DNA of 64,000 nt, taken from the NCBI RefSeq assembly GCF_019039255.1, contig NZ_CP077062.1, forward strand, positions 2,356,001 to 2,420,000, given 5' to 3'. This document shows positions 36,492-53,893 of the stretch, piece by piece. Source of the DNA: Nocardioides panacis (GTDB lineage Bacteria; Actinomycetota; Actinomycetes; Propionibacteriales; Nocardioidaceae). A program made the position numbers and the translations under genes. Numbering within the stretch: the stretch's first letter is position 1; every line of letters begins with the position of its first letter. The notes under the pieces were generated by a model, which was not told where the DNA came from, searched no databases, and saw nothing but the letters and a program-made list of their open reading frames with translations.

Positions 36492-36519
36492 GAGAGGCTC
36501 CTCCGAGTCGAGGTTTCTG

Positions 36520-36553
36520 TTGCGTATCATGCAACGCAATGCGTCATATGAAA
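36520..36553. promoter_or_regulatory. 34-bp IclR-type operator, copy A (dehydrogenase-ETF operon)
   Basis: It begins TTGCGTATCATGCAAC and aligns base by base with three other sites in this window. The inner palindrome is TTGCGT-N8-ACGCAA; the distal half-site here is degenerate. It is centred about 45 nt upstream of the dehydrogenase start. Confidence 0.7.
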
Positions 36554-36636
36554 CAGCCTCCAGCATGCGGCTCCCCCGCCGCGCCTGTCAACCAGGCACG
36601 ACGGGGGGAAACGGCCGGATCCCCGGGGTCAGTTGG

Positions 36637-37652: not shown

Positions 37653-39650
37653 TCAGCGGCCGTAGCGCGCTGCGGTGTACTTGGCGATCCGGTCGACCAT
37701 GACGCCGAGGGCGGTGATCGCGATGCCCGCGGCGAGGCCCTTGCCGAACAGCTGGCCCTGCGAGAAGCCGGACACCACGATGTAGCCGAGGCTGCCGGCG
37801 CCGACCATGCCGCCGATCACGACCATCGAGAGCACGTAGAGCAGTCCCTGGTTGGTCGCCAGCACGATCGCCGGACGGGCCATCGGCAGCTGCACCTTGG
37901 TGATCATCTGCCAGCGGGTGCTCCCCGAGGCCTCGGCGGCCTCGACGGTGGTGGGCGCGACCCCGCGGATGCCGTCGGCGACGAGCTTGGTGGCCAGCGG
38001 CAGCGCGTAGGCGACGGCCGCCACGATCGCGGTGAACCGGCTGGTGGAGAACAGCGCGAGAGCCGGCACGAGGTAGACGAACGGCGGCAGGGTCTGCAGC
38101 GCGTCCAGGAACGGCCGGATGACCGTGTCGACCCGTCGGCTGCGTCCCATCCAGACACCGAGCAGCACCGCCAGGATCATCACCAGCACGGTGGCCACGA
38201 TCGTGGTGGTCAAGGTGATCATCGCGTCGTGCCACAGGCCCATCGCCAGGATCACCCCCTCGCACACGGCGGTGACGACGGTCGGCCGCCAGCCGCCGAG
38301 GAAGTAGGAGAAGCCCAGCAGCACCGCGGCCATCAGCCACCAGGGCGTGTCGGCCATCAACGTCTGGAGCGGGTTCAGGAAGCCGTAGCTGACGGCGTTC
38401 TTGAAGCCGGAGGTGAACGTGTCGACGTTGTTGACGACACTGTCGGTCGCCGAGTTGATCGCGTCGGCGATCGTGGGGCCGACGTCCAGCTTCTGCGGGA
38501 ACTGCGCGAGCTGGAGGTAGAGGCGGGACAGGTAGATGCAGACCGCGACCACGACCGCGCCGACGCCCAGGACGATCCGCCGGGTGCGGGTCGACATCCG
38601 GCCCCGCGTCTGCCGCTCGGCGCGCTCGCTGGCCGCCGTGGTGGTCCGGTCGAGCATGATCGCCATCACGACGATCGCCAGGCTGGGCACGGCTGCCGCG
38701 CCGACGTCGAGGTTCTGCAGCGCCTGCACGACCGGCTGGCCCAGCCCGGGCCCGTTGACGAAGGCGGCGATGGTGGCCATCGACAGCGCGGCCAGCGTGC
38801 ACTGGTTGATGCCCAGCACGATCGTCCGGCGGGCCATCGGCAGCTGGACCCGGCGCAGCAGCTGCCGGCGGGTGACCCCGAGCGAGTCGGCAGCCTCGAC
38901 GGTCGTCGGCGACACCGACCGGATGCCGTGCTCGGCGATCCGCACCAGCGGCGGCAGGGCGTAGACGAGGGTCACCAGGATCGCGCAGGTCGCGCCGATC
39001 CCGAAGACCAGCGCGAACGGCGTCAGGTAGGCGAACGACGGCATCGTCTGCATCACGTCGAGCACCGGCGTCACCAGGTCGGAGAGCCACTTGCGCCGCG
39101 ACATCCCGACGCCGAGCGGCAGGCCGATCACCACGCAGAGCAGCACCGCGATCACGGTGACGATCAGCGTGTCCATGCTGTCCTGCCAGTAGCCCAGGAT
39201 CCCGAAGGCCAGCGTCGAGGCGACGACCAGCACCATCGAGCGCAGGCCCGCGGCGGCGTACGCGACCCAGCCGAAGATCGCGACCACGCCGAGCCAGCCG
39301 ATCTGCGGGACCGGGCGGCCCGGGGCCGGGGCGGAGATGAGGTACTGGATCTGCTCGAAGACCCAGTTGGTGAACGTGACGATGTTGCCGATCACGCCGT
39401 GGAAGAACCAGTTGGTCGGCGTCGCCGCCTGGATCGCGTCCCGGACGCCGTTCAACCAGCGCTGCAGGCCGTTCAGGTCCTGGAAGCCGGTGGCCAGGGT
39501 GTCCTGGTGCTTGAGCAGCGCCCAGCCGACCACCCAGACCGTGACCACGATCGCCAGCCACATGCCGGTGCGGCGCGGCTTGGTCGTCGCGACGTAGGGC
39601 TGCTCCTCGCGGGAGGTGGGCCGCGGCCGGGGCGGGGACGCGATGCTCAC
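37653..39650 (-). CDS. proW: Glycine betaine ABC transporter permease, double-length ProW
   Basis: This 665-residue permease has two full BPD_transp_1 domains in one chain, so a single polypeptide could replace the usual ProW dimer. The first cytoplasmic coupling loop reads [23 protein letters not shown] and the second [23 protein letters not shown]; the two halves are clear duplicates. Each half has about six membrane helices, and an Arg-rich linker (residues about 330-345) joins them. It overlaps proV (ATGA). The duplicated domains retain both coupling helices, so both should contact ProV. Confidence 0.9.
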
Positions 39651-40720
39651 GGCTGCGTCCCCTCCTCGGCGACCACGACCCGCAGGATGTCCTCGTCGTC
39701 GACCACGCCGAGGAACTCCTCACCGTCGTACACGCGCACGGCGCCGCGCACCTCGAGGACCTTGCGCGCGGCGTCCCGGACGATCTCGTCGGCCTGCATC
39801 ACCGGGCCGTCCGAGGACTCGCCCTCGTGCGGCTGGCGGCAGACGTAGCGCAGGGTGAGCACGTGCGACCGGGGTACGTCGCTGACGAAGTCCTTGACGT
39901 AGTCGTCGGCCGGCTCGGCCACCACCTGGGCGGGCGTCCCGATCTGGACGATCTCGCCGTCGCGCATGATCAGGATCCGGTCCCCCAGCTTGAGCGCCTC
40001 CTGGAGGTCGTGGGTGATGAAGATCATCGTCTTCCCGACCTCCTCGTGCAGCCGGATCACCTCGTTCTGCATGTCCCGCCGGATCAGCGGGTCGAGGGCC
40101 GAGAAGGGCTCGTCGAACATCATCAGGGTCGGGTCGCCGGCCAGCGCCCGGGCCAGCCCGACCCGCTGCTGCATGCCGCCGGAGAGCTGGTCGGGGTAGG
40201 AGTCCTCGTTGCCGCTCAGGCCGACCAGGTCGACCATCTCCTGGGCCCGGGCGCGGCGCTCGGCCTTGGACACGCCGCGCACCTCGAGCCCGAAGGCCAC
40301 GTTGTCGCGCACCGTGCGGTGCGGCAGCAGCCCGAAGTGCTGGAACACCATCGCCACGTGGTTGCGGCGCAGCTCGCGCAGCCGGGCGTCGTCGGCGCCG
40401 GTGATGTCCTGCCCGCCGATCGTCACGCTGCCCTGGGTCGGCTCGATCAGCCGGGTGAGCAGCCGGACCAGCGTCGACTTGCCGGAGCCGGACAGGCCCA
40501 TCACCACGAACACCTCGCCCGGCCGCACCTCGAACGACACGTCCTTGACCGCCATGACGCAACCGGTCTTGGCCTGCAGCTCCTTGCGCGACAGGTCGGC
40601 GTCCGGCGTGCCGATGATCTTGTCGGCCTTGGCGCCGAAGATCTTCCAGAGTCCCTTGACCGACAGCGCCGACTCCTCGTCGGACGTCGAGCTGGCGGGA
40701 GCTGCCTCGGTCTGCGTCAT
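39647..40720 (-). CDS. proV: Glycine betaine ABC transporter ATP-binding protein
   Basis: This is a 357-residue ATPase of the ProV/OpuAA type. Walker A is GLSGSGKST, the Q-loop is in [14 protein letters not shown], the signature [15 protein letters not shown], Walker [14 protein letters not shown], and the switch His is in FITHDLQEA. The C-terminal region (about residues 290-357) contains CBS-like sequence ([32 protein letters not shown]), used for ionic-strength gating in OpuA. The ATG overlaps the betA stop and the stop overlaps proW. Confidence 0.94.
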
Positions 40721-42394
40721 CGGTGGTCTCCTGGGGGGTACAGCGGACTGTTCTCGCGGTAGCGGTAGAACGGGGCGTCCGAAGCGGGCAGGGGCGTGTT
40801 CCCGAGGATCAGGTCGGCGCTCTTCTCGGCGAGCATCATCACCGGGGCGTAGATGTTGCCGTTGGTGATGTAGGGCATCGAGGAGGCGTCCACGACGCGC
40901 AGCCCCTCGACGCCGTGCACGCGCATCGTCTCGGGGTCGAGCACCGACTGGTCGTCGACGCCCATCCGGGCGGTGCACGAGGGGTGCAGCGCGGTCTCGG
41001 CGTCCTTGGCGACCCAGTCCAGGATCTCCTGGTCGGTCTCCACCGACGGACCGGGTGAGATCTCCCCGTCGTTGAAGGCCGCGAACGCCGGCTGGTTGAG
41101 GATCTCCCGGGCGGCCCGGACCATCTCGATCCACTCGCGCCGGTCGTTCTCGGTCGAGAGGTAGTTGAACCGCAGCGCCGGGTGCTCCCGCGGGTCGGTC
41201 GACTTGAGCGTGACGGTGCCGCGCACGTCGGAGTACATCGGCCCGATGTGCACCTGGTAGCCGTGCTCCGCGGCGGGCTGCGACCCGTCGTACCGGATCG
41301 CGATGGGCAGGAAGTGGAACATCAGGTTCGGGTAGTCGACCCGGTCGTTGCTGCGGATGAACCCGCCGGCCTCGAAGTGGTTGGTGGCCCCGACGCCGCT
41401 GCGCAGGAAGAGCCACTCGGCGCCGATGCGTGGCTTGTGCCGGTGCTTGAGCCAGGGCCCGATGGAGACCGGCTGCTTGGAGGCGTACTGGATGTAGACC
41501 TCTAGGTGGTCCTGGAGGTTGCTGCCCACTCCGGGCAGGTCGGCGACCACCGGGATGCCGAGCTTCTCGAGGTCGGCCTTCGGCCCGATCCCCGACAAGA
41601 GCAGCAGCTGCGGCGAGTTGATCGCGCCACCGCAGAGGATGACCTCCTTGGCGTGCACCCGCGTGCTGCCGCGGCCCGGGCGCCGGTAGTCGACGCCGGT
41701 GACCCGGTTGCCCTGCACCACCAGCCCGGTGACCATCGCGAGCGTGTGCACGTCGAGGTTCTTGCGGCCCATCACGGGGTGCAGGTAGGCACGGGCGGCG
41801 CTGAGCCGGCGGCCCCGGTGCACGTTGCGGTCGAAGGCCGCGAAGCCCTCCTGCCGGTAGCCGTTGACGTCGTCGGTGAGCGGGTGCCCGGCCTGCTGGA
41901 CCGCCTCGAAGAAGGCACCGAACAGCGGGCCGGTGGCCGGGCCGCGCTCCAGGACCAGGGGGGCCGCTGCCGCCGCGCCAGGCGTCGGCGCCGGCCAGGC
42001 AGGTCTCCATCCGCTTGAAGTACGGCAGGCAGTGCGCGTAGTCCCACGCCTTCATGCCGTCGTCGGCCGCCCAGCGCTCGAAGTCCAGCGGGTTGCCGCG
42101 CTGGAAGATCATCCCGTTGATGCTGCTCGAGCCGCCGAGCACCTTGCCGCGGGCGTGGTAGACCTTGCGGCCGCCCATGTGCGGCTCGGGCTCGGACTCG
42201 TACTTCCAGTCGTAGAGCCGGTTGCCGATCGGGTACGGCAGCGCCGCCGGCATGTGGATGAACGGGTCGATCTTGATGTCGCTGCGGCCCGCCTCGAGCA
42301 CCAGGACCGTCGTACCCGGGTCGGCGCTGATCCGGTTCGCGAGGGCACAGCCGGCGGATCCTCCTCCGACGATGACGTAGTCGTACGTGCTCAT
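40717..42394 (-). CDS. betA: GMC oxidoreductase, probable choline dehydrogenase (BetA), frameshifted in the sequence as given
   Basis: This is a GMC flavoenzyme predicted to oxidise choline to betaine aldehyde. The N-terminal part has the FAD motif [15 protein letters not shown] and the GMC signature [11 protein letters not shown]. The second part has [24 protein letters not shown] with the active-site His, and [14 protein letters not shown]. The halves are out of frame: the six-base G run at 41958-41963 has one extra base, and removal restores [13 protein letters not shown] and a protein of about 558 residues. It follows betB by 13 nt and couples to proV (ATGA). Substrate assignment rests on betB and the transporter. 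Confidence 0.87.
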
Positions 42395-42407: not shown

Positions 42408-43895
42408 CTAGTGGTCGGTTCCGGTGGCCCCGTCGAACCAGCGTTGGGGCGCCGGGTTCACGTTGTGCCAGACGTGTTTGGTCTCGCGGTACTCGTCGAG
42501 GCCGGCGGCGCCCAGCTCGCGGCCGACGCCGGACTGCTTGTAGCCGCCCCACTCCGCCTGCGGGACGTAGGGGTGGTAGTCGTTGATCCACACCGTGCCC
42601 ATGCGCAGCCGGGCCGCGACCCGCTCGGCCTTGCCGCCGTTGCTGGTCCACACCCCGCCGGCGAGGCCGTAGATGCTGTCGTTGGCGATCCGCACCGCGT
42701 CGGCCTCGTCGCGGAACGTCTCGACGGTCAGCACCGGCCCGAACGACTCCTCCTGCACGACGGACATGGAGCTCTCGCAGCCGTCCAGCAGCGTGGGCAG
42801 GTAGTAGAAGCCGCCGGCCAGCTCCGGGTCGTCGGGACGGGCTCCCCCGCAGCGCAGCTGCGCGCCCTCGGCCAGTCCGCGGGCGACGTACGCCTCGACC
42901 TTGGCGCGGTGCGCGGCGGAGATCAGCGGGCCGGTCTCGGCCTTGTCGTCGAACGGGCCGCCGAGGCGGATCAGCTCCGCGCGGCGGACCAGCTCGTCGA
43001 CGAACTCGTCGTGCACGGACTCCTCGACCAGCAGCCGGGCGCCGGCCGAGCAGACCTGTCCGGAGTGCAGGAACACGGCGGTGAGGGCGAAGTCGAGGGC
43101 CGCCTCGCGGTCGGCGTCGGCGAACACGATGTTGGGGTTCTTGCCGCCGAGCTCCAGCGCGACCTTCTTCACGGTCGCGGCGGCCGAGGCCATGATCCCC
43201 CGGCCGGTCGCCAGCCCACCGGTGAACGAGACCAGGTCGACGCGGGGGTCCTCGCTGAGCAGCGCGCCGGCCCGCGGGCCGGCGCCGAGCACGAGGTTCG
43301 CCACTCCGGCCGGGACGCCGGCCTCCTCGAGCAGCACCATCAGGTGGATCGCGGTGTGCGGGGTGAGCTCGCTGGGCTTGAGCACGAAGGTGTTGCCGGC
43401 GGCCAGGCAGGGCGCGACCTTCCAGGCGGTCTGCAGCAGCGGGTAGTTCCACGGCGTGATCAGGCCGCAGACCCCGACGGGCTCGTGCACGATCCGGCTG
43501 ACCACGTCGGCACGGCCGGTGTCCACCACCCGGCCGGCGTCCTGGGCCGCCACGTTGCCGTAGTGCCGGAACACCCCGACGACGTCGTCGACGTCGTACT
43601 CGCTCTCGACCAGGCGCTTGCCGGTGTCCAGCGACTCGGCGCGGGCGACCAGCGCCTTGTCGCGCTCCAGCAGGTCGGCGACCCGGTGCAGCAGCGCGCC
43701 CCGCTCGATCGCGGAGCCGCCCGGCCAGCTGCCCTCGTCGAAGGCGGCCCGGGCCGCGGCGATCGCGGCGGCGGTGTCCTGCGGCCCGGCCTCGTCGATC
43801 TCGGCCACGAGCGACCCGTCCGCCGGGCAGCGGATCTCACGGCGCTCGCCCTCGCGAGCACCCTCCCATCGCCCCCCGACGTAGAGCTGCGGCAC
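42408..43895 (-). CDS. betB: Betaine aldehyde dehydrogenase
   Basis: This is a 495-residue NAD(P)-dependent aldehyde dehydrogenase. [16 protein letters not shown] and LKPSELTP bind coenzyme and position the catalytic Asn. Catalytic Glu is in [10 protein letters not shown] and catalytic Cys in [12 protein letters not shown]. The C-terminal Trp/Tyr-rich [19 protein letters not shown] resembles the betaine-aldehyde-binding region. It is first in betB-betA-proV-proW-proX, starting with GTG 31 nt from operator B. Together with BetA it would make glycine betaine from imported choline. Confidence 0.92.
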
Positions 43896-43993: not shown

Positions 43994-44764
43994 CTAGGAG
44001 GTTCCGAAACCCAAACGTCGCGAGACCTCGTCGGCGGCGTCCTGCACCACCGGCACGAGCTCCTTGACCCGGGCCTCACCCAGCCGGAAAGTCGGTCCGG
44101 ACACGCTCAGCGAGGCGATCACGTCCCCGTGGGCGTTGCGGATCGGCGCCGCGATGGCGGTCAGCCCGACCTCGAGCTCGTCGACCGCGACGGCGTACCC
44201 CTGCTCGCGCACCTCGGCCAGCTCGCGGCGCAGCTTGGCCTTGGTGGTGACCGTCTCCGCGGTGTAGGACGGCAGCCGCGGCAGCCGGTTGTCGATCTCG
44301 TCGCTGGACAGGCCGCAGAGCAGCACCTTGCCGTTGGAGGTGGCGTGCAGCGGGATGTGCTGGCCGACCCAGTTGTGCGACTGGAGCGCGGACTGGCCGG
44401 CGACCTGGTCGAGGTAGAGCGCGGACCGGTCCGAGAGCACCGCGATGTTCACCGTCTCCCCCGAGTCGGCCGCCAGCTTGCGGCAGATCGGCCGGGCCTC
44501 CTGGACCACGTCGAGGCGGGCGGTGGTGGCGCCGGCGAGGCGCAGCACGCCGACACCGAGGCGGTACTTGCCGCGCTCCTCGTTCTGCTCCACCATGCCG
44601 TGGGACTCCAGCGTGGCGACCAGCCGGAACGCGGTGCTCTTGTGCACCCCGAGCTCGACGGCGATCTCGGTGACGCCGGCCTCACCGAGCCGGGCGAGGA
44701 TGCCCAGGATGGTGAGCGCCCGGTCGACAGACTGGACCGATGCCGGAGCCTCGCCGTTCCCCAT
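43994..44764 (-). CDS. IclR-family transcriptional regulator (betaine regulon)
   Basis: This is a regulator of about 256 residues. The N-terminal winged helix-turn-helix spans residues 10-75 (SVDRALTILGILARLGEAGVTEIAVELGVHKSTAFRLVATLESHG), and the IclR effector domain follows (LHATSNGKVLLCGLS, VDELEVGLTAIAAPI, LSVSGPTFRLG). The ATG at 44764 was taken; a TTG six codons upstream is possible. TACGGT lies 6 nt before the ATG, so the mRNA is probably leaderless, and operator C covers the region 24-57 nt upstream, indicating autoregulation. The four operator copies suggest it controls the whole betaine regulon. The effector is unknown, perhaps betaine or dimethylglycine. Confidence 0.9.
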   Translation of the reverse strand: MGNGEAPASVQSVDRALTILGILARLGEAGVTEIAVELGVHKSTAFRLVATLESHGMVEQNEERGKYRLGVGVLRLAGATTARLDVVQEARPICRKLAADSGETVNIAVLSDRSALYLDQVAGQSALQSHNWVGQHIPLHATSNGKVLLCGLSSDEIDNRLPRLPSYTAETVTTKAKLRRELAEVREQGYAVAVDELEVGLTAIAAPIRNAHGDVIASLSVSGPTFRLGEARVKELVPVVQDAADEVSRRLGFGTS

Positions 44765-44770
44765 AGACTG

Positions 44771-44776
44771 ACCGTA
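44771..44776 (-). promoter_or_regulatory. -10 hexamer TACGGT of a leaderless iclR promoter
   Basis: TACGGT stands 6 nt before the iclR ATG on the reverse strand. Operator C occupies the expected -35 region. Confidence 0.45.
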
Positions 44777-44787
44777 GCGCAACCGTG

Positions 44788-44821
44788 TTGCGTATCACAG
44801 AATGTGTCTCTCTTGACGCAA
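44788..44821. promoter_or_regulatory. 34-bp IclR-type operator, copy C (iclR / purU divergent)
   Basis: TTGCGT and ACGCAA lie 22 nt apart, the same geometry as copies B and D. It lies between divergent iclR and purU and could control both. Confidence 0.7.
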
Positions 44822-44860
44822 CGTGAATCTCCCCCCGCAGGCCCGACCGCAAGGGACGCC

Positions 44861-45715
44861 ATGACCGACCAGACCTACGTCTTGACCCTCACCTGCCCCG
44901 ACCGGGCCGGCATCGTGCACGCGGTGACGGGTCTGCTGGTCGAGCAGCACGGCAACATCGTGGAGAGCCAGCAGTTCGGCGACCTCGCCGAGGACCGGTT
45001 CTTCATGCGGGTGAAGTTCGCGGTCGAGGGGGACGTGACGGTCGCGTCGCTGCGGGCGGCGTTCACGCCGGTGGCCGAGCGGTGGGGCATGGCCTGGGAG
45101 CTCTGGGCCGCCACGGCGCCGTACCGGACGCTGATCCTGGTCTCGAAGTTCAGCCACTGCCTCAACGACCTGCTGTTCCGGTGGAGCAGCGGCTCGCTGC
45201 AGATCGACGTCGCCGGCGTGGTGTCCAATCACCCCGACTGCGAGACGCTGGTCCGGTCCTACGGCGTGCCCTACCACCACGTCCCGGTGACGCCGGAGAC
45301 CAAGGCCGACGCCGAGGCGAAGATGCTGTCGCTGGTGGACACCCTCGACGTCGACCTCGTCGTGCTGGCGCGCTACATGCAGGTGCTCACCGACGAGACC
45401 TGCCGCGCGCTGTCCGGCAAGGCGATCAACATCCACCACTCGTTCCTGCCCAGCTTCAAGGGCGCCCGGCCCTACCACCAGGCCTTCGACCGTGGCGTGA
45501 AGCTGGTCGGGGCCACCGCGCACTACGTGACCGGCGACCTCGACGAGGGCCCGATCATCGAGCAGGACGTGATGCGCGTCGACCACGGGTACGACGCGGC
45601 CGCCCTCGCCGCCGCCGGGCGCGACGTGGAGAGCCAGGTGCTGTCCCGGGCGGTCCGCTGGCACGCCGAGTCCCGGGTCCTGCTCAACGGCCACAAGACC
45701 GTCGTCTTCCGCTGA
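44861..45715 (+). CDS. purU: Formyltetrahydrofolate deformylase
   Basis: PurU hydrolyses 10-formyl-THF to formate and THF, freeing THF when one-carbon units are in excess. The 284-residue protein has an N-terminal ACT domain (TLTCPDRAGIVHAVTGLLVE) and a C-terminal formyltransferase-fold domain with VVSNHPDCE, the active-site INIHHSFLPSFKGARPYHQA and TAHYVTGDLDEGPII. Operator C upstream and its position between betaine genes suggest it clears formyl-THF made from betaine methyl groups. A long hairpin directly overlaps its stop. Confidence 0.93.
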   Translation: MTDQTYVLTLTCPDRAGIVHAVTGLLVEQHGNIVESQQFGDLAEDRFFMRVKFAVEGDVTVASLRAAFTPVAERWGMAWELWAATAPYRTLILVSKFSHCLNDLLFRWSSGSLQIDVAGVVSNHPDCETLVRSYGVPYHHVPVTPETKADAEAKMLSLVDTLDVDLVVLARYMQVLTDETCRALSGKAINIHHSFLPSFKGARPYHQAFDRGVKLVGATAHYVTGDLDEGPIIEQDVMRVDHGYDAAALAAAGRDVESQVLSRAVRWHAESRVLLNGHKTVVFR

Positions 45716-45768
45716 CCCGTCACTCGTGCAGCCAAGACACGCGTGTCTGGCTGCACGAGTGACGGGTC
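45714..45768. terminator. Bidirectional hairpin between purU and mttB
   Basis: The inverted repeat has outer arms GACCCGTCACTCGTGCAGCC / GGCTGCACGAGTGACGGGTC (20 bp, perfect), one unpaired A, and inner arms AGACAC / GTGTCT around GC. The two genes converge on it. No U-tract follows, as is common in actinobacteria. Confidence 0.75.
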
Positions 45769-45772
45769 GCGG

Positions 45773-47212
45773 TCAGTCGCCGAGCTCCGCGCGACGCCGG
45801 ACGACGTACTCCTCGAGCTCCAGCCGGACCGCGTCGTCGAGCGGCGGCGCGACGTACTCCTCGAGCTTGGCCTGGTAGGTCTTCGAGGCGCGCGCGTTGG
45901 TGTCCAGCGAGCCGTTGCGCATCCACCGCTCGTAGTTCTCCGAGGAGGACAGCAGCGGCCGGTAGAAGCAGGTCCGGAACCGCTCCATGGTGTGCATCGC
46001 ACCCAGGAAGTGCCCGCCGTGCCCGACCTCCAGGTGCGCGCCGAAGGCGAGCGAGTCCTCGTCGATCTCCAGCGGGGTGAACTCGGCCTGCATCATCTGC
46101 AGGATCTCGACGTCCACGATGAACTTCTCGAAGCCGGCGACCAGGCCGCCCTCCAGCCAGCCGGCCGAGTGCATCACCCAGTTGGCGCCGGCGAGGAACG
46201 TCGGCAGCATCGTCATCAGCGCCTCGTAGCCGGCCTGCGCGTCGGCGACCTGCGAGGAGGTCAGCCCGCCGCCGGAGCGGAACGGCAGCCCGAAGTGCCG
46301 GGCGATCTGGCCGGTGCAGAGCAGGCCGATGCCCGACTCCGGGGTGCCGAAGGTCGGCGAGCCGGACTGCATGTCGATGTTGGACAGGAACGACCCGAAG
46401 ATCACCGGGGCGCCGGGGCGGATCAGCTGGGTGAGCGCGATGCCGGTCAGCGCCTCGGCGATCTGCTGGACCAGCGCGGCCGGGATCGTCACCGGGGACA
46501 TCGCGCCCATCAGGATGAACGGCGTCACCACGCAGGGCTGGCCGGCCAGGGTGTACTCGAACAGCGACTCCAGCATCCGGTCGTCCCAGTGCAGCGGGGA
46601 GTTGCAGTTGATCAGCGAGATCGACACCGGGGTCTGCTCGATCGCCTCCCGCCCGCCGAACAGGATCTCGCCCATCCGGATGGTGTCGCGGGCGTTCACG
46701 CCGGAGACCACGTTGCCCATGTAGACCTTGTCGGTCAGGGTCTGCAGCGCGTAGGTCATGTCGAGGTGCCGCGAGTCGAGCGGGGTGTCGTTGGGCTCGC
46801 AGATCACGCCACCGGCCGAGTCGAGCACCGGGAACACCTGCGCCAGCTTGGCGAACCGCTCGAAGTCGTTCATCGTCGCGTCGCGGCGCACGTCGCCCTC
46901 GCGCACGAACGGCGGGCCGTAGACCGCGCCGAAGGCCATCGCGTCACCGCCGATGTGGATGCTGTGCTCCGGGTTGCGGGCCTGCACGTCGAACTCGCGC
47001 GGCGCCAGGGCGACCTGCTCGAGGATCCACTCGGGGTCGAAGAAGACGTTCTGCCCCTCGACCTTCTGGCCGGCCTCGCGGAACAGCGTGAGCGCCCGCT
47101 CGCTGTCGAACTCGACACCGATCTCCGTGACGATCCGGCGCCAGCCCGCATCGAGCTTGGACATCGCGTCCTCGGAGAGGATCTCGTACCTCGGCATCTT
47201 GTTGCGGAACAT
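45773..47212 (-). CDS. MttB-superfamily corrinoid methyltransferase, probable glycine betaine methyltransferase
   Basis: This is a 479-residue protein of the trimethylamine methyltransferase (MttB) superfamily, which moves a methyl group from a quaternary amine to the Co(I) of a corrinoid protein. There is no in-frame UAG, so it is a non-pyrrolysine member, the group containing the betaine-specific MtgB. Characteristic parts are IHIGGDAMAFGAVYGPPFV, PVSISLINCNSPLHWDDRMLES, VTPFILMGAMSPVTIPAA, FGTPESGIGLLCTGQIARH and the C-terminal GHGGHFLGAMHTMERFR. An AGGAGGT ribosome site fixes the ATG at 47212. Glycine betaine is inferred from neighbours; other betaines are possible. It diverges from the regulator and corrinoid operon. 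Confidence 0.88.
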   Translation of the reverse strand: MFRNKMPRYEILSEDAMSKLDAGWRRIVTEIGVEFDSERALTLFREAGQKVEGQNVFFDPEWILEQVALAPREFDVQARNPEHSIHIGGDAMAFGAVYGPPFVREGDVRRDATMNDFERFAKLAQVFPVLDSAGGVICEPNDTPLDSRHLDMTYALQTLTDKVYMGNVVSGVNARDTIRMGEILFGGREAIEQTPVSISLINCNSPLHWDDRMLESLFEYTLAGQPCVVTPFILMGAMSPVTIPAALVQQIAEALTGIALTQLIRPGAPVIFGSFLSNIDMQSGSPTFGTPESGIGLLCTGQIARHFGLPFRSGGGLTSSQVADAQAGYEALMTMLPTFLAGANWVMHSAGWLEGGLVAGFEKFIVDVEILQMMQAEFTPLEIDEDSLAFGAHLEVGHGGHFLGAMHTMERFRTCFYRPLLSSSENYERWMRNGSLDTNARASKTYQAKLEEYVAPPLDDAVRLELEEYVVRRRAELGD

Positions 47213-47279
47213 TCCGACCTCCTGGACGGGATCTTGGCGGTTCTGCTTGACCGGCGCTGATCGGCATCCTAGCCTCATC

Positions 47280-47300
47280 ATGTGGAAGTCGGTTCCACAT
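47280..47300. promoter_or_regulatory. Palindromic operator between mttB and the second iclR
   Basis: ATGTGGAA and TTCCACAT form a perfect 8-bp inverted repeat around GTCGG. The right arm is followed by CATGAAAC, giving an overlapping IclR-box-like palindrome (GTTCCAC ... ATGAAAC). It differs from the 34-bp operator and is probably bound by the adjacent second IclR protein. Confidence 0.65.
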
Positions 47301-47330
47301 CATGAAACAATCCCGTAACCCGAGGTCCCG

Positions 47331-48115
47331 ATGGCGAGCACCGCCCCGGCAGGCACGCAGGCGGTCGACCGCGCCGCTGCGCTGGTCGACCTCGTCGTGC
47401 GCGCCGACGAGCCGCTGAGCTTCACCGAGCTCAGCGACGAGACCGGGCTGGCCCGGTCCACGACCTCGCGCCTGCTCGCCGCCCTCGAGCGCACCGAGCT
47501 CATCGAGCGCGACGCCGCCGGTGGGTACGTCGCCGGCCCGCTGTTCGCGCTGCACGCCGCGCTGCACGACCCCTGGCCGCAGATCGCCCGGCTGGCCCGA
47601 CCGGTCCTGGAGACCGTCGGCGAGCAGACCGGCGAGACCGTCCACCTCGGGGTACGTCGCGGCGAGGACGTCGTGCACATCGCCCAGGTCGAGTCGACGT
47701 TCCTGCTGTCGGCGCGCGACTGGAACCAGGTCGACGTACCCCCGCACTGCTCGTCGCTGGGCAAGGTGCTCTACGCCTTCGACGTGCTGCCGGTCCCGAG
47801 CGGCCGGCTCGAGCGACGTACCCCCCGCACGATCACCACCCGCGAGGCGCTCACCACCGAGCTCGCCACGATCCGCCGGCAGCGCTACGCGACCACGGTG
47901 GACGAGCTCGAGACCGGGCTCACCGGTATCGCGGCACCCGTCGAGGGACGCGACGGCGTGTTCGCCGCCCTCGGCATCTCCGGGCCGACCGCCCGGCTCC
48001 AGGACCGGGCCGACCGCATCGGTCGGCTCCTCATCGAGCAGGCCGACGCCCTGTCGGCGCTGCTCCGGCGCAGGACCCTGCACGGCACCGACGGCACGAA
48101 GAAGGAGGGCGCGGC

Positions 48116-48119
<4 letters not shown>
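47331..48119 (+). CDS. IclR-family transcriptional regulator (corrinoid operon)
   Basis: This 262-residue regulator has an N-terminal winged helix (AVDRAAALVDLVVRADEPLSFTELSDETGLARSTTSRLLAALERTE) and a C-terminal IclR effector domain (TVHLGVRRGEDVVHIAQVES, CSSLGKVLYAF, VDELETGLTGIAAPV, ALGISGPTARL). It is the first gene of a forward operon: its stop overlaps the corrinoid-protein ATG (ATGA). It faces mttB across a palindrome at 47280-47300, so it probably controls mttB and its own operon. The effector may be a methylated amine. Confidence 0.9.
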
Positions 48120-48780
<661 letters not shown>

Positions 48781-48784
<4 letters not shown>

Positions 48785-49656
48785 GCGAGCTGCTCGAGAC
48801 CACCCTGCGCGGCACCGGCGCCGAGGTCGTGCTGGGCCACACCCGCCGGTTCTGCCTGATCGGCGAGCGCATCAACCCCACCGGCCGGCGGATCTTCCAG
48901 GAGCAGCTGCGCGCCGGGGACCTGTCCGCGATCGAGCGCGACGTCCTCGCGCAGGTCGAGGGCGGCGCGGACGTGCTCGACGTCAACATGGGCGTGCCGA
49001 TGACCGACGAGCCCGAGCTGCTGGCCAAGGCGATCACCCTGGTCCAGCAGCTCACCGACAAGCCGATCTGCATCGACTCCTCCGTCGTGGAGGCGCTCGA
49101 GGCCGGGCTGTCGGTCTACCAGGGCCGGGCGCTGGTCAACTCGATCACCGCCGAGGACGACCGGATGGCGCTGATCCTCCCCCTCGTCAAGAAGTACGAC
49201 GCCGCGATCATCGCGCTGCCGAACGACGCCGAGGAGATCCCGATGGAGGCGGACCGCCGCCTCGAGCTCGTGCAGCACATCGTCGACGTCGCCACCACGG
49301 AGTACGGCATCGCCAAGCAGGACATCGTGATCGACCCGCTGGCCATGCCCATCGGCGCGGACACCCAGGTCGTGAACACCACCCTGGAGACGATGCGCCG
49401 GATCCGCGAGGTGCACGGGCTGAACATGACCTGCGGCGCCTCCAACGTGTCCTTCGGGATGCCCGACCGGCACACCCTGGGCGCGGCGTTCCTGCCGATG
49501 GCGATGACCGCCGGCCTGACCAGCGCGATCATGGACACCCGGACCCCGCAGATCGTCACCGCGGTCAAGGCGGCCGACCTGCTGCTCGGCCACGACGACT
49601 GGGGTGGCGCCTGGATCGCCGCACACCGCAAGAAGCAGGCCTCCGCCGCCGGATGA
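48781..49656 (+). CDS. Methyltetrahydrofolate:corrinoid methyltransferase-like (pterin-binding) protein
   Basis: This is a 291-residue TIM-barrel protein of the pterin-binding family (AcsE/MtgA/MetH-domain type). FCLIGERINPTGRRIF is the folate-binding start, followed by GGADVLDVNMGVP, ICIDSSVVEALEAGL, LVNSITAEDD, IALPNDAEEIP and MTCGASNVSFGMPDR (catalytic Asn). In this setting it should move the methyl from methyl-corrinoid to THF, producing methyl-THF for the MetF-like reductase at 52.9 kb. The stop overlaps the RACo-like gene (ATGA). Confidence 0.92.
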
Positions 49657-51593
49657 ACGACACCCCGAGCAGCCAGCCGCCCGACGTGGAGATGGACGAC
49701 CTCCGCCGGGAAGGCCTCATCGACCGTCCCGACGGCCCCGGCTCCCAGCCGCACGACGGCGTGGGCCGGGTGCACCTGTCGTTCACGCCGTCCGGGCGGG
49801 ACGTCCGCGTCCCCCCGGGCGTGAGCGTGTTCGACGCGGCCAGCTGGAACGGTCTCGCGATCGACTCGACGTGCGGCGGGCACGGCACCTGCAAGAAGTG
49901 CCGGGTCCAGGTCGTCGGCGGCACCGTGCCGGTGCACCGGCTCGACGTCCGCACCTTCACCGCCGCCCAGCTCGCCGACGGCTGGCGGCTGGCCTGCCTC
50001 GCGCAGGCGACCACCGACCTGAAGATCGACGTGCCGCCGCTGACCACCCGCCCCAAGGCGGCCACCCTCGGCGTCGGGCGTCAGGTGATCCTCCGCCCGG
50101 CGGTGCAGAAGAGGTACGTCGAGCTCAGCGAGCCGACCCTGCAGGACCAGCGCACCGACCTGCAGCGGGTGCTCGACGAGATCGACGACCTCGAGCTCAC
50201 CCCGGACCTGCACGTCCTGCGCCGGCTGCCCGCCGTGCTCCGGGCCGCGGACTTCAAGGTGACCGCGGTGATCGTCGATGAGGCCCTCGTGGACGTCGAG
50301 CCCGGTGACACGACGGCGCGGCGGTTCGCGGTCGCCTTCGACCTCGGCACCACCACGGTCGTCGCGACCCTGCTCGACACCGCCACCGGCACCCCGGCCG
50401 CGGTGGCCTCGATGCTCAACAAGCAGCAGCCCTTCGGCGCCGACGTGATCACCCGGATCAGCGCCACGATGATGGACCCGCAGGCCGCCGAACGGCTCCG
50501 GGACCTGGCCCAGGCGACGCTGGCCGAGCTCACCGCCGAGGTGCTCGCCGAGGCGGAGGTCGAGCCCGGCGAGGTCTACGAGGTCGCGCTGGCCGGCAAC
50601 GCCACGATGACCGCCCTGGTGCTCGGCATCGACCCCGAGCCGCTCGGCGTCGCGCCGTTCGTGATGTCCAGCAGCACGCTGCCCGCGCTGCTCGCCTCCG
50701 ACCTCGGCCTCGAGCTGCACCCGCGGGCCCGGGCCGTGGTCTTCCCGGCCCTCGGCGCGTACGTCGGCGGCGACATCGTCGCGGGCATGCTGGCCACCGG
50801 CATGGACCGCGACAAGCGGACCCGGCTGTTCATCGACGTGGGCACCAACTGCGAGATCGTGCTCAGCGACGGCGACACCATCGTCTCCACGGCCGCACCC
50901 GCCGGCCCGGCCTTCGAGGGCGGCGCCATCCGCTGCGGCATGCGGGCGGCCGACGGTGCCGTCGAGGTGGTCCGGATCGACGCCGACGGCGTGCACCTGC
51001 AGACCATCGGCGACGTCGAGCCGCAGGGCCTGTGCGGCTCCGGCCTGGTCGACGTGGTCTCCGAGCTGGTCCGGGCGGACCTGCTGGACTCCTCGGGACG
51101 GTTCGTCAGCGACGAGCGGGCCGCGGAGATCGCCCCGCAGGTCGCGGACCGGCTGACCAGCATCGGCCAGGAGCGGGTGTTCGTGCTGCACCGGCCCGAG
51201 GCGGACTCGCCGCCGGAGGAGTCGGTCTACCTCTCCCAGCGCGACGTCCGCGAGCTGCAGTTCGCCAAGGGCGCCATCGCCACCGGCTGGACGCTGCTGC
51301 TCGAGCAGCTCGGCCTGGAGCAGGCGGACGTCCAGCAGGTGCTGCTGGCCGGCTCGTTCGGGAGCTACCTCTCCCCCGCCGCGGCCGTCCGGATCGGCCT
51401 GGTGCCCAAGATCCCGGTGCTCCGGATCGTCTCCGCCGGCAACGTCGCGGGCGAGGGCGCGAAGATGAGCCTGCTGAGCGTGCGCGAGCGCGCCGGCGCC
51501 CTGGCCCTGCTCGAGGAGGTGACCTATGTCGAGCTCTCCGACCGCACCGACTTCAACGACCGGTTCATCGACCTCCTCGCGTTCCCCGGCTGA
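49653..51593 (+). CDS. RACo-like reductive activator of corrinoid protein (2Fe-2S ferredoxin + ASKHA)
   Basis: This is a 646-residue activator that would reduce inactive Co(II) to Co(I) at the cost of ATP. The N-terminal plant-type [2Fe-2S] domain has CGGHGTCKKC (Cys74, 80, 83) and Cys115 in WRLACLA. A linker and a DUF4445/ASKHA ATPase domain follow, with VAFDLGTTTVVATLLD, GALAGNATM-like ALAGNATMTALVLG, LFIDVGTNCEIVLSDG and VLLAGSFGSYLSP. Length and order match RACo/RamQ-type activators. In an aerobe oxygen would inactivate Co(I) often, so such a repair enzyme would be needed. The electron donor is unknown. Confidence 0.93.
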   Translation: MNDTPSSQPPDVEMDDLRREGLIDRPDGPGSQPHDGVGRVHLSFTPSGRDVRVPPGVSVFDAASWNGLAIDSTCGGHGTCKKCRVQVVGGTVPVHRLDVRTFTAAQLADGWRLACLAQATTDLKIDVPPLTTRPKAATLGVGRQVILRPAVQKRYVELSEPTLQDQRTDLQRVLDEIDDLELTPDLHVLRRLPAVLRAADFKVTAVIVDEALVDVEPGDTTARRFAVAFDLGTTTVVATLLDTATGTPAAVASMLNKQQPFGADVITRISATMMDPQAAERLRDLAQATLAELTAEVLAEAEVEPGEVYEVALAGNATMTALVLGIDPEPLGVAPFVMSSSTLPALLASDLGLELHPRARAVVFPALGAYVGGDIVAGMLATGMDRDKRTRLFIDVGTNCEIVLSDGDTIVSTAAPAGPAFEGGAIRCGMRAADGAVEVVRIDADGVHLQTIGDVEPQGLCGSGLVDVVSELVRADLLDSSGRFVSDERAAEIAPQVADRLTSIGQERVFVLHRPEADSPPEESVYLSQRDVRELQFAKGAIATGWTLLLEQLGLEQADVQQVLLAGSFGSYLSPAAAVRIGLVPKIPVLRIVSAGNVAGEGAKMSLLSVRERAGALALLEEVTYVELSDRTDFNDRFIDLLAFPG

Positions 51594-52182
51594 CGCGGGC
51601 CGGGTGGCGCTGATCGCCTGCGGGGCGATCGCCGCCCCGTGCGCGCAGGTGGTCGCCGCGCACGGGTGGCCGGTCGACGTACACCCGCTGCCGCCGCTGC
51701 TGCACAACCACCCGGAGCGGATCGCCCGGCAGGTGGAGGCCCTGGCCGACGAGCTGGCGGGTCGCTACGACCGCCTGGCGATCGGCTACGCCGACTGCGG
51801 GACCTACGGCGCCCTCGACCAGGTGTGCGAGCGCCGCGGACTCGCCCGGCTCGCGGGACTGCACTGCTACGACGTCTTCGGGGGCGCCGACCGGCTGACG
51901 GCGATGTTCGAGGCCGAGCCGGGGACCTACGTGCTCACCGACTTCCTGGTGCGCTCGTTCGGCCGGACGGTGGTCGCCGAGCTCGGGCTGGACCGCTACC
52001 CGGAGCTGCGCGACGACTACTTCGCGCACTACACCCGGATGGTCTGGCTGGCCCAGCAGCCCGACGACGAGCTGCGCCGGCTGGCCCAGGAGGCCGCGGA
52101 CCGGGTCGGACTGCCGCTGGTGGTCGTGGAGACCGGGCACACGGGCCTCGAACGCGCCCTCGCCGAGCTCCTCGTCTCGTAG
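51526..52182 (+). CDS. DUF1638 protein
   Basis: This is a roughly 218-residue soluble protein with DUF1638 features: VALIACGAIAAPC, the HPLPPLLHNHPERI segment, and the YADCGTYGALD motif with Cys, plus HCYDVFGGADRL and a conserved WLAQQPD late in the protein. DUF1638 genes recur with corrinoid methyltransferases, but no activity is established. The ATG at 51526 has an excellent GAGGAGGT site but overlaps the RACo gene by 68 nt and gives a 26-residue Ser/Thr-rich head. The GTG at 51604 starts exactly at the conserved region. The first was kept with reservation. Confidence 0.78.
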   Translation: MSSSPTAPTSTTGSSTSSRSPADAGRVALIACGAIAAPCAQVVAAHGWPVDVHPLPPLLHNHPERIARQVEALADELAGRYDRLAIGYADCGTYGALDQVCERRGLARLAGLHCYDVFGGADRLTAMFEAEPGTYVLTDFLVRSFGRTVVAELGLDRYPELRDDYFAHYTRMVWLAQQPDDELRRLAQEAADRVGLPLVVVETGHTGLERALAELLVS

Positions 52183-52185
52183 GCT
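52180..52185 (+). promoter_or_regulatory. -10 hexamer TAGGCT of a leaderless promoter
   Basis: The hexamer uses the DUF1638 stop codon TAG and stands 6 nt before the ATG at 52192, so the metallo-hydrolase gene may also be transcribed on its own without a leader. Confidence 0.5.
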
Positions 52186-52191
52186 CCGGCC

Positions 52192-52920
52192 ATGGCCTCG
52201 ACCCCCTCGATCGAGCTGGCGCCCGGCGTGTTCCGGATCCCGACCGCCGGCCGCAACCTGGTCAACTCCTTCGCCCTCCTGCAGGACGACGGCAGCGTCA
52301 CGCTCGTCGACACCGGGCTCAAGCGGGCCCCGGCCCGGATCGTGGCCGGCCTCGCCGCCCTCGGCAAGCACCCCCGCGACGTCACCCGCATCGTGCTCAC
52401 CCACGTGCACCCCGACCACGCCGGCGGGGCCGCCGAGATGGCCCGGCAGACCGGTGCACCGGTCCTCGCGCACGGCGACGACCACGGCTGGGCCCGGGCC
52501 GGGCGCATCCACGGGGCGACCGACCGGTCGACGCTGCTCGGCCGGCTCTTCGCGCGGACCGGGGACGCCCGGATCGAGGCCTTCGAGCCCGGGCCGGCCC
52601 TCGTCGACGGCGAGGTGCTGCCGGTCAGCGGCGGCCTGCGCGTCGTGCACACCCCCGGCCACTCCCCCGGCCACGTCTCGCTGCTGGTCGAGCCGACCGG
52701 CACGCTGATCACCGGCGACGCACTGTTCAACTTCCCGTGGATGCGCCGGGCGAGGCTCTCCCCTGCCTACCTGTGCTCGGACTTCGCGATGACCCGGCGC
52801 ACGGCGCACCGGCTCGGCGAGCTGGAGTACGACGTCGCGGCGTTCACCCACGGCCCGGAGATCACCGAGCGGGCCCGGGAGACGGTGCGCGGGATCCTCG
52901 CGGACCTCCCGGCCAGCTAG
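52192..52920 (+). CDS. MBL-fold metallo-hydrolase
   Basis: This is a 242-residue metallo-beta-lactamase-fold hydrolase. Metal motifs are THVHPDHAGG (HxHxDH), the His in VVHTPGHSPGHV, the bridging Asp in LITGDALFNFP and a final His in AAFTHGPEI. The size fits glyoxalase II-like or other thioester/lactone hydrolases. It lies 9 nt after DUF1638 and could belong to the corrinoid operon, for instance handling a formaldehyde or glutathione/mycothiol adduct. It also has its own leaderless promoter, so the link is uncertain. Confidence 0.85.
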   Translation: MASTPSIELAPGVFRIPTAGRNLVNSFALLQDDGSVTLVDTGLKRAPARIVAGLAALGKHPRDVTRIVLTHVHPDHAGGAAEMARQTGAPVLAHGDDHGWARAGRIHGATDRSTLLGRLFARTGDARIEAFEPGPALVDGEVLPVSGGLRVVHTPGHSPGHVSLLVEPTGTLITGDALFNFPWMRRARLSPAYLCSDFAMTRRTAHRLGELEYDVAAFTHGPEITERARETVRGILADLPAS

Positions 52921-52930
52921 CGCACGGCCC

Positions 52931-53788
52931 TCAGCCGGTCGAGGCCATCAGCCGGTCGAGGTACTCCCGCCGCCACGCCTCGGTCTCGGCCACCTGGTTG
53001 AACGTGTAGACGTGCAGGCCGGTGACCAGCGAGCCCGGTCGGGCCAGGGCCGGCGCGCACCGCTCGAGGAACCGCTCGCCGGTGAAGCCGCCGGGCGCCG
53101 CGAGCCGGGTGAGCGTGCCCTTGTGCTTGACCAGGAACCGGGTCGAGTCGCCGACCCCGATCTTGGTCGCCATGCTGAGCAGCTTGGCGCGGTCGATCGG
53201 CCCCGGGATGCCCAGCAGCACCGGCATCGTGATGCCGCGCAGCCGCATCCGGTCGATCCAGGTCCTGATGCTGTCGGGGTCGAAGTTCAGGTTGCTGACC
53301 ACGTGCGTGGCGTGCCGGCGCTTGTCCCACATCGACTGCACGGTGAGGTCGTCGCTGATCGTGGGGTGCGACTCCGGGTAGCCGGTGATGCCGACCTCCG
53401 GGAACGGCCGTCCGAGCGCGGTCAGGTCCTCCAGGAGGTCCAGGGCGCAGATGTAGTCGCCGGCCGGCGGGTCCTGGTCGCCGCCCGGCACGAACACCGT
53501 GCGCACGCCGGCGGCCTGCATCCGCGCCACGATCTCCGCGAGCTCGGTGCGTCCGGAGACCATCCGGGCGGCCAGGTGCGGGACCGTCGCGTAGCCGTGC
53601 CGGGCCAGCCGCTCGGTCAGCGCGAGGGTGGCCTCGATGCCCTTGGCCGGGGACGCCGTGACGGTGACCGTCCGGTCGAGGGGCAGGTGCTCGAGCACCT
53701 TCTCCTCGACGGACGACGTGGGCAGCACCTCGTAGCGCGCCGACGTGAGCATGTCGGCGAGGAAGGCTCCGTGCGTTTTGTTGCGCAT
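52931..53788 (-). CDS. Methylenetetrahydrofolate reductase (MetF)-like protein
   Basis: This is a flavin-dependent MTHFR-family TIM barrel of about 286 residues. VTVTASPAKGIEATLALTERLA, TVPHLAARMV, VFVPGGDQDPPAGDY, EVGITGYPESHP and TGLHVYTFNQV follow the family order. In catabolism it could run in reverse, oxidising methyl-THF from the corrinoid pathway to methylene-THF. Three in-frame starts lie inside or beside operator D (53800 and 53788 ATG; the latter chosen). The overlap of operator and start suggests tight repression. It may be distinct from a biosynthetic MetF elsewhere in the genome. Confidence 0.85.
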   Translation of the reverse strand: MRNKTHGAFLADMLTSARYEVLPTSSVEEKVLEHLPLDRTVTVTASPAKGIEATLALTERLARHGYATVPHLAARMVSGRTELAEIVARMQAAGVRTVFVPGGDQDPPAGDYICALDLLEDLTALGRPFPEVGITGYPESHPTISDDLTVQSMWDKRRHATHVVSNLNFDPDSIRTWIDRMRLRGITMPVLLGIPGPIDRAKLLSMATKIGVGDSTRFLVKHKGTLTRLAAPGGFTGERFLERCAPALARPGSLVTGLHVYTFNQVAETEAWRREYLDRLMASTG

Positions 53789-53814
53789 GATGCAACTCAT
53801 TTCGCGATACGCAA
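53781..53814. promoter_or_regulatory. 34-bp IclR-type operator, copy D (metF-like gene)
   Basis: TTGCGC and ACGCAA are 22 nt apart; the inner TTGCGCATGATGCAAC matches copy A closely. It covers the start-codon region of the MetF-like gene. Confidence 0.7.
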
Positions 53815-53893
53815 TTCGGCGGCCAGCGTATCGCCGCACGCGGGCCCCCCCACAAGCATCACGGGGATGTCGCGGGGGGCCTGCCGCGAACGG

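Follow-up and report, generated by a model that had tools for sequence, protein, structure and literature searches.

The window analysed here (64,000 nucleotides, positions 2,356,001-2,420,000 of the single 4.9 Mb contig NZ_CP077062.1, 99.96% completeness; 72% G+C) carries a compact divergent locus built around an MttB-superfamily methyltransferase gene. We consider it likely that this locus encodes an Actinobacteria-specific form of the MtgB/C/D kind of system, which demethylates glycine betaine aerobically with the help of cobalamin, operating through the following steps. The MttB-like protein would transfer one methyl group of glycine betaine to the Co(I) of a corrinoid protein, leaving dimethylglycine; a pterin-binding enzyme would pass this methyl from the corrinoid to tetrahydrofolate (THF), and a divergent MetF paralogue would oxidise methyl-THF to methylene-THF. 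Co(II) arising from accidental oxidation would be re-reduced by a RACo-type activator and a DUF1638 protein, while a flavoprotein linked to electron transfer flavoprotein (ETF) would then oxidise dimethylglycine and PurU would recycle formyl-THF. Finally, the IclR-family protein encoded first in the operon would control both divergent transcripts through a TGTGGAA-N5/6-TTCCACA site. Supporting the corrinoid route are the conservation of the operon, its co-occurrence with a dimethylglycine enzyme, the retention of predicted substrate-contact residues, and the lack of a GbcA-class oxygenase in a genome-wide search.

The pathway as such is already known: cobalamin-dependent betaine demethylation by MtgB/C/D, RamA, DUF1638 and MetF2 was reported in 2025 for the aerobic Ruegeria pomeroyi, in which parts of these kinds rise on betaine, and mtgBCD is described in many proteobacteria (Mausz et al., PMC12478193). 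A preliminary description of this DNA, which held such sets to occur mainly in anaerobes, is thus out of date on this point, and its claim to novelty is weaker because of that report. The novelty that is left lies in a second MttB/corrinoid lineage, found in Actinobacteria, with a conserved operon, an IclR-type palindrome, a tight link to dimethylglycine oxidation and a retained MetH. Oxygen-tolerant B12-dependent betaine demethylation would thereby be extended from proteobacteria to actinobacteria, with carriers including named isolates of Nocardioides, Pimelobacter, Phycicoccus, Pseudonocardia, Planobispora, Trebonia and Actinophytocola, and the compact operon suits tests of how cobalamin is re-activated reductively in air, what DUF1638 does and which ligand the regulator binds. 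No paper on the actinobacterial locus was found in the open-access literature, subscription papers and preprints being mostly outside coverage, and the accessible text of a report on non-pyrrolysine mttB in a sponge microbiome gives no placement in Actinobacteria (PMC9999580).

A divergent corrinoid operon and its palindrome

The components that carry this proposal are:

33978-36566, minus strand: dimethylglycine oxidase/dehydrogenase-like flavoprotein with GcvT domain (518 bits to 1pj5)
45773-47212, minus strand: MttB-superfamily non-pyrrolysine methyltransferase, MtgB-like, 479 amino acids (aa), proposed glycine betaine:corrinoid methyltransferase (PF06253, 622 bits)
47281-47299, no strand: palindrome TGTGGAAGTCGGTTCCACA, proposed IclR-type operator, in the divergent gap from MttB start to IclR start
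47331-48119, plus strand: IclR-family regulator, first operon gene (IclR_C 104 bits, HTH_IclR 51 bits)
48116-48784, plus strand: corrinoid protein, MtgC-like (PF02607 and PF02310; B12-binding 107 bits)
48781-49656, plus strand: pterin-binding methyltransferase, MtgD/AcsE-like, proposed to move methyl from corrinoid to tetrahydrofolate (PF00809, 100 bits)
49653-51593, plus strand: RACo-type ATP-dependent corrinoid reductive activator with N-terminal 2Fe-2S domain (four Pfam domains above cut-off)
51604-52182, plus strand: DUF1638 protein, start taken at GTG 51604, with a longer mechanical open reading frame (ORF) from 51526 (PF07796, 80 bits)
52931-53839, minus strand: divergent methylenetetrahydrofolate reductase (MTHFR), MetF2-like, proposed methyl-THF oxidation (PF02219, 45 bits, cut-off 24)

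Profile searches bore out all six components named in the preliminary description (MttB, corrinoid protein, pterin enzyme, RACo, DUF1638 and MetF-like reductase), which had missed the IclR regulator at the head of the operon and the palindrome. The layout it gave was likewise confirmed: the MttB gene is divergent from the plus-strand operon of IclR, corrinoid protein, pterin-binding methyltransferase, RACo and DUF1638, and ATGA overlaps couple the operon's IclR gene (IclR2) to MtgC, MtgC to MtgD, and MtgD to RACo; with the DUF1638 start at GTG 51604, RACo and DUF1638 do not overlap. Downstream of DUF1638 lie a plus-strand MBL-fold gene and then the MetF paralogue on the minus strand. The window thus brings together MtgB, MtgC, MtgD, a RamA/RACo-type activator, DUF1638 and an extra MetF, the co-location by which we define an aerobic system of the MtgBCD kind. 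Elsewhere, the genome encodes a haem-copper oxidase and a corrin-ring methyltransferase above cut-off, and MttB is present in a single copy.

The corrinoid protein carries DVHDIG at residue 103, the DxHxxG motif noted earlier. The pterin enzyme, an MtgA in the sets to which the preliminary description likened the locus, is MtgD/AcsE-like by its solved-structure matches: it resembles AcsE- and MetH-type modules, scores 317 bits against PRK07535 (cut-off 259), and its 17 solved matches listed at 1e-8 do not include 6SJ8 or 6SK4, the structures of Desulfitobacterium hafniense MtgA (PMC7154762). The activator has the complete RACo-type set of 2Fe-2S, linker, middle and ASKHA C-terminal domains (Fer2 41 bits, linker 85, middle 181, RACo_C_ter 250), with 432 bits to the AcsV model (below its cut-off of 800) and 333 bits to solved chain 3zyy, which we take to be RACo. 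Besides the MetF paralogue of the locus, the genome has one typical MTHFR (317 bits) and a weak third one (36 bits).

To assess conservation, we used related loci from one scan of named genomes, keeping the best 80 matches: 46 homologues of the window's MttB at 59-89% identity (hereafter window-type), whose titles are actinobacterial save two called only "uncultured bacterium", followed by 34 at about 44-47%, among them three Acidimicrobiia (L090, L092, L102). All five operon genes occur in 28 of the 30 window-type loci with at least 6 kb of operon-side flank (IclR in 29, DUF1638 in 28), the exceptions being L061, with no DUF1638 match, and L082, with none of the five; operon-side flanks are shorter than 6 kb in the remaining 16 loci. 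Of the 30, 27 have an MTHFR, which belongs to either of two types (three at ~30% identity and distant from the operon), and at L077 MttB and operon are co-directional instead of divergent.

When up to three mismatches are allowed, the palindrome is the window's only match to its 21-base form, against 0.02 expected. Across loci, a motif scan with one spacing returned few close matches (6 of 40 gaps at up to three mismatches); the spacing of five or six was chosen after this result, so the second scan was not blind. With it, TRTGGAA-N5/6-TTCCAYA was found at up to two mismatches in 31 of 40 homologous gaps. Among 1600 control segments taken from these loci, some possibly overlapping the site themselves, 24 gave such a match. 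Across the 46 loci, every one of the 22 sites with no more than one mismatch lies inside the divergent gap, a placement consistent with the IclR protein of the operon using the palindrome as its operator. The palindrome also bears on the MttB start: the 479-residue length is right, as AGGAGG precedes the ATG at 47212, while the 502-aa start of the mechanical ORF, which we rejected, begins inside the palindrome.

The MttB-like protein and its lineage

The MttB-like protein matches PF06253 (MTTB) over its full length (positions 5-500 of 500) and is 41% identical to D. hafniense MtgB (2qne/9yce), 45% to 4yyc, presumably the S. meliloti protein and itself 92% identical to a Pararhizobium protein, and 24% to MttB 7xcl, the pyrrolysine-containing trimethylamine methyltransferase of methanogens, which belongs to the same superfamily. 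As the preliminary description stated, the gene has no in-frame UAG: it has no internal stop, Leu occupies the pyrrolysine (X) column of 7xcl, and the score to the pyrrolysine MttB equivalog TIGR02369 is 276 bits, below its cut-off of 525. Docking has predicted Y94, N199, R309 and H345 of D. hafniense MtgB as betaine contacts (PMC6855144). These correspond to Y121, N225, R335 and H371 in the window protein, whereas 7xcl has Phe, Cys, Tyr and Tyr; window-type rows retain the four residues in 43-45 of 45 cases, the set at ~45% identity in 34 of 34, and the other rows from the phylum in 21-26 of 26. This conservation therefore favours a betaine-type substrate over trimethylamine, not glycine betaine over other betaines. 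For the gene set as a whole, we judge it very probable that it removes the first methyl of glycine betaine with vitamin B12.

Next, we placed the protein in a 68-row tree comprising the window, 25 of the 45 window-type loci with full MttB, 13 of the 34 loci at ~45% identity, three references of solved structure and 26 further genomes of the phylum. In it, 27 rows of window-type proteins group together (bootstrap/SH-aLRT 100/100), apart from a second clade of 34 rows (100/99) that joins 4yyc with proteobacterial and other actinobacterial sequences; D. hafniense MtgB falls outside both. The window protein thus lies outside the rhizobial-type aerobic MtgB clade, and Actinobacteria therefore hold at least two MttB lineages. 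For the corrinoid protein, a tree made quickly, in which the reference branches are very long, likewise gave an actinobacterial clade of its own (37 rows, aLRT 99). Two titles in this material look misassigned: the MttB of bin L073 (Bifidobacterium breve) clusters with other actinobacterial bins, and that of L104 (Klebsiella pneumoniae) is 46% identical, like the proteobacterial set. Separately, seven actinobacterial draft genomes (G208, G440, G402, G411, G424, G430, G452) have two or three MttB-family matches each, and these copies may serve different quaternary amines.

Compared with the R. pomeroyi system, the window shares MtgB, a separate corrinoid protein, a PF00809 MtgD, a RamA-type activator, DUF1638 and a second MetF, as well as an aerobic setting and, in many members, nearby genes for later demethylation (PMC12478193). 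It differs in that its MttB and corrinoid protein have clades of their own, distinct from the rhizobial-type one, in its tight divergent operon with an IclR gene and a conserved palindrome, and in a genome that keeps a full MetH and has its MtgE-type gene unlinked. With the D. hafniense MtgB/MtgC/MtgA system it has in common the reaction order and the classes of the first two proteins; however, D. hafniense is an anaerobe, unlike this apparently aerobic organism, and its MtgA was described as having no sequence identity to then-solved structures (PMC7154762), whereas the window enzyme matches AcsE-/MetH-type modules. The split methionine synthase of Phaeobacter inhibens offers another parallel, with a split corrinoid system, a ferredoxin-DUF4445 activator and DUF1638, its RamA-like and DUF1638 proteins being linked to B12 re-activation; that system serves methionine synthesis (PMC5764234), while the window genome has MetH. 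We entertain, tentatively and at somewhat less than even odds, that Actinobacteria built an aerobic corrinoid betaine demethylase apart from proteobacteria, with its own MttB and corrinoid clades, its own IclR switch and operator, and, where MetH is retained, little coupling to methionine synthesis. If so, Gram-positive bacteria would have their own equivalent of the marine MtgBCD route, and Phycicoccus would hold a coupled form of it, marked by an MtgE-type gene within the cluster.

The dimethylglycine link and rival explanations

If the locus demethylates glycine betaine, its product should have a consumer. The flavoprotein encoded in the window has as its best solved relative the N,N-dimethylglycine oxidase 1pj5 (full length), with 301 bits to dimethylglycine dehydrogenase 4pab. 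The nearest named relatives of the genome, judged by the MttB protein, are Nocardioidaceae, and the assignment of the 197 genomes surveyed next to this family rests on such named relatives. MttB was found in 64 of the 197 and the dimethylglycine enzyme (≥72% identity) in 68: both were present in 62, MttB only in 2, the dimethylglycine enzyme only in 6, and neither in 127. The enzyme thus accompanies 62 of 64 MttB-positive genomes (72-100% identity, some fragments) versus 6 of 133 MttB-negative ones. Within the 62, both genes lie on one contig in 50 genomes (median 13.8 kb, maximum 34 kb start-to-start) and on separate contigs in 12. Among the related loci, 9 of the 29 that span ≥15 kb have an enzyme of ≥55% identity within the flank, and the enzyme adjoins MttB, together with EtfBA, in L054, L057 and L060, three of the four from Pseudonocardia. 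This near one-to-one co-occurrence therefore ties the system to conversion of glycine betaine to dimethylglycine, and with about a third of the sampled family MttB-positive, betaine use there may depend on B12. In three of the six MttB-negative exceptions, dimethylglycine might arise by another route, as a full-length GbcA-like match is present.

Several points weigh against this reading. The Fisher p-value of the association (2e-41) treats related genomes as independent, the 70% identity threshold was set after a gap had been seen between matches at ≥72% and those at about 40% or less, and the MttB-positive genomes G404 and G426 carry only relatives of the dimethylglycine enzyme at 38-39% identity. 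No operon genes were seen in L082 (10 kb), L083 (4.5 kb) or L063 (3.2 kb). The tree's sole proven glycine betaine enzyme, D. hafniense MtgB, lies outside the window clade, and the four contact residues, being kept in other sets as well, do not discriminate among betaines. The equivalog cut-offs of NCBI are reached for neither MttB nor MtgC, with the glycine betaine-specific MtgC models NF047995 and NF047996 at 158 and 194 bits (cut-offs 310 and 370; the score given for MtgC_2 is likewise 194 against 370). Finally, betA is frame-shifted in the assembly, so the choline-to-betaine step may fail here.

We consider it unlikely that the MttB-like protein takes its methyl from a different quaternary amine, be it choline, carnitine, proline betaine, gamma-butyrobetaine or some similar osmolyte, with the betaine genes merely lying nearby. 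MttB paralogues of Eubacterium do act on different betaines with one common corrinoid protein (PMC8604678, PMC12478193), and neither the contact residues nor a tree drawn without MtpB, MtcB and MtyB separates these substrates; yet the dimethylglycine enzyme, the expected consumer of demethylated glycine betaine, is near one-to-one with MttB and close to it, and no carnitine or proline-betaine genes were seen among ten neighbours in four related loci, a thin sample. Very improbable, in our view, is a corrinoid module for methionine synthesis, i.e., a split synthase with an MtgE-type partner for which betaine demethylation is secondary or absent. The MtgC and MtgD of R. pomeroyi do serve both methionine synthesis and betaine demethylation (PMC12478193), and the genome encodes, at 1,452,032, an MtgE-type protein that shares 44-47% identity with its counterparts in 11 rhizobial-type loci and 61-63% with those next to MTHFR in Phycicoccus L046 and L052. 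However, a full-length MetH is present (2152 bits, cut-off 1497), the gene for the MtgE-type protein lies away from the locus in this genome, only 2 of 46 actinobacterial loci, whose flanks are limited, showed one, and MttB has no known role in methionine synthesis. In the two Phycicoccus loci, an MtgE-type homocysteine methyltransferase gene lies between MTHFR and DUF1638 (L046:4078-4971, L052:4089-4961), which suggests a form coupled to methionine synthesis.

The first methyl could also be removed by the GbcAB Rieske monooxygenase, an oxygenase route without B12 that has the same net first step and yields dimethylglycine, or by betaine-homocysteine methyltransferase (BHMT), leaving the corrinoid locus for something else; we regard this as very improbable as well. 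The preliminary description had noted the absence of both from the window, and genome-wide this held for one of the two. No GbcA-class oxygenase was found in the genome: its one PF00848 Rieske alpha subunit (L036) does have GbcA as best NCBI model, but at 127 bits and over model positions 30-230 only, versus nearly full-length GbcA-like matches of 302-442 bits in 17 of the 197 family genomes, none of which reaches the curated 670. BHMT is not cleanly absent. The protein at 1,452,032 is annotated as such and scores 282 bits to the NCBI betaine-homocysteine methyltransferase model (cut-off 338), but it is closer to methionine synthase 1q7m (183 bits) than to betaine-homocysteine methyltransferase 1lt7 (89 bits), and by these matches is a MetH-like homocysteine methyltransferase of the MtgE type. 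The S. meliloti version, termed MtgE, is argued to be dispensable for betaine demethylation and without betaine-binding residues (PMC12478193). Nor do GbcA and MttB exclude each other across the family, a reading that we tested and rejected: 7 of the 17 genomes with full-length GbcA-like matches are MttB-positive (Fisher p 0.43).

A Rieske oxygenase alpha subunit is encoded at 3930877-3932154 (L037:9877-11154), adjoining genes for a PaaE-like reductase and a zinc alcohol dehydrogenase, and an ammonium transporter gene lies ~3 kb off. The best solved relative of this alpha subunit is carnitine monooxygenase (108 bits), and it may act on another quaternary amine.

Neighbouring betaine-catabolism genes

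The remaining features around the locus are:

32234-33211, minus strand: ETF alpha-like (best 131 bits to ETF-type models, below cut-offs)
33208-33981, minus strand: ETF beta-like (best 84 bits to ETF-type models, below cut-offs)
37653-39650, minus strand: choline/glycine betaine-type ABC permease with two permease domains (TIGR03416 351 bits, cut-off 363; ProW model 331 bits, cut-off 439)
40717-42394, minus strand: choline dehydrogenase, BetA-like (PRK02106 519 bits, cut-off 605, C-terminal part; GMC_oxred_N in other frame)
42408-43895, minus strand: betaine-aldehyde dehydrogenase, BetB-like (TIGR01804 593 bits, cut-off 669)
43994-44782, minus strand: second IclR-family regulator (IclR_C 161 bits)
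44861-45715, plus strand: PurU, formyltetrahydrofolate deformylase, start approximate (TIGR00655 341 bits, cut-off 286)
52192-52920, plus strand: MBL-fold hydrolase, outside the conserved core (Lactamase_B 104 bits)

On the minus strand, the order is EtfA, EtfB, the dimethylglycine oxidase-like flavoprotein, ABC transporter genes, BetA, BetB and IclR, after which PurU is convergent with the MttB gene; an ORF at 44795-45694 (minus strand), which overlies PurU on the opposite strand and has no family match, was discarded as spurious. The oxidative betaine neighbourhood outlined in the preliminary description largely persisted, with PurU above cut-off and the flavoprotein matching dimethylglycine oxidase over its full length, while BetB, BetA, ProV/ProW-like proteins and EtfBA are assigned by similarity, their NCBI-model scores falling below equivalog cut-offs; the ProX candidate had no family match in profile searches. 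Within betA, the reading frame changes near 41.96 kb, so that the N-terminal ~144 residues are in a different frame from the rest, reflecting either a real pseudogene or an assembly error in a G/C-rich stretch.

That description also had the first methyl leave through the corrinoid and the other two oxidatively. The first step and the oxidation of dimethylglycine agree with the evidence above; for the third methyl, that of sarcosine, no SoxB above cut-off was found in the genome. At 4,371,802 the genome encodes another dimethylglycine-type flavoprotein (36% identity), and our guess would be that it acts on sarcosine.

The MBL-fold hydrolase directly after DUF1638 gave no tblastn match at 1e-10 across the 80 related loci, and is perhaps a recent arrival at the locus.

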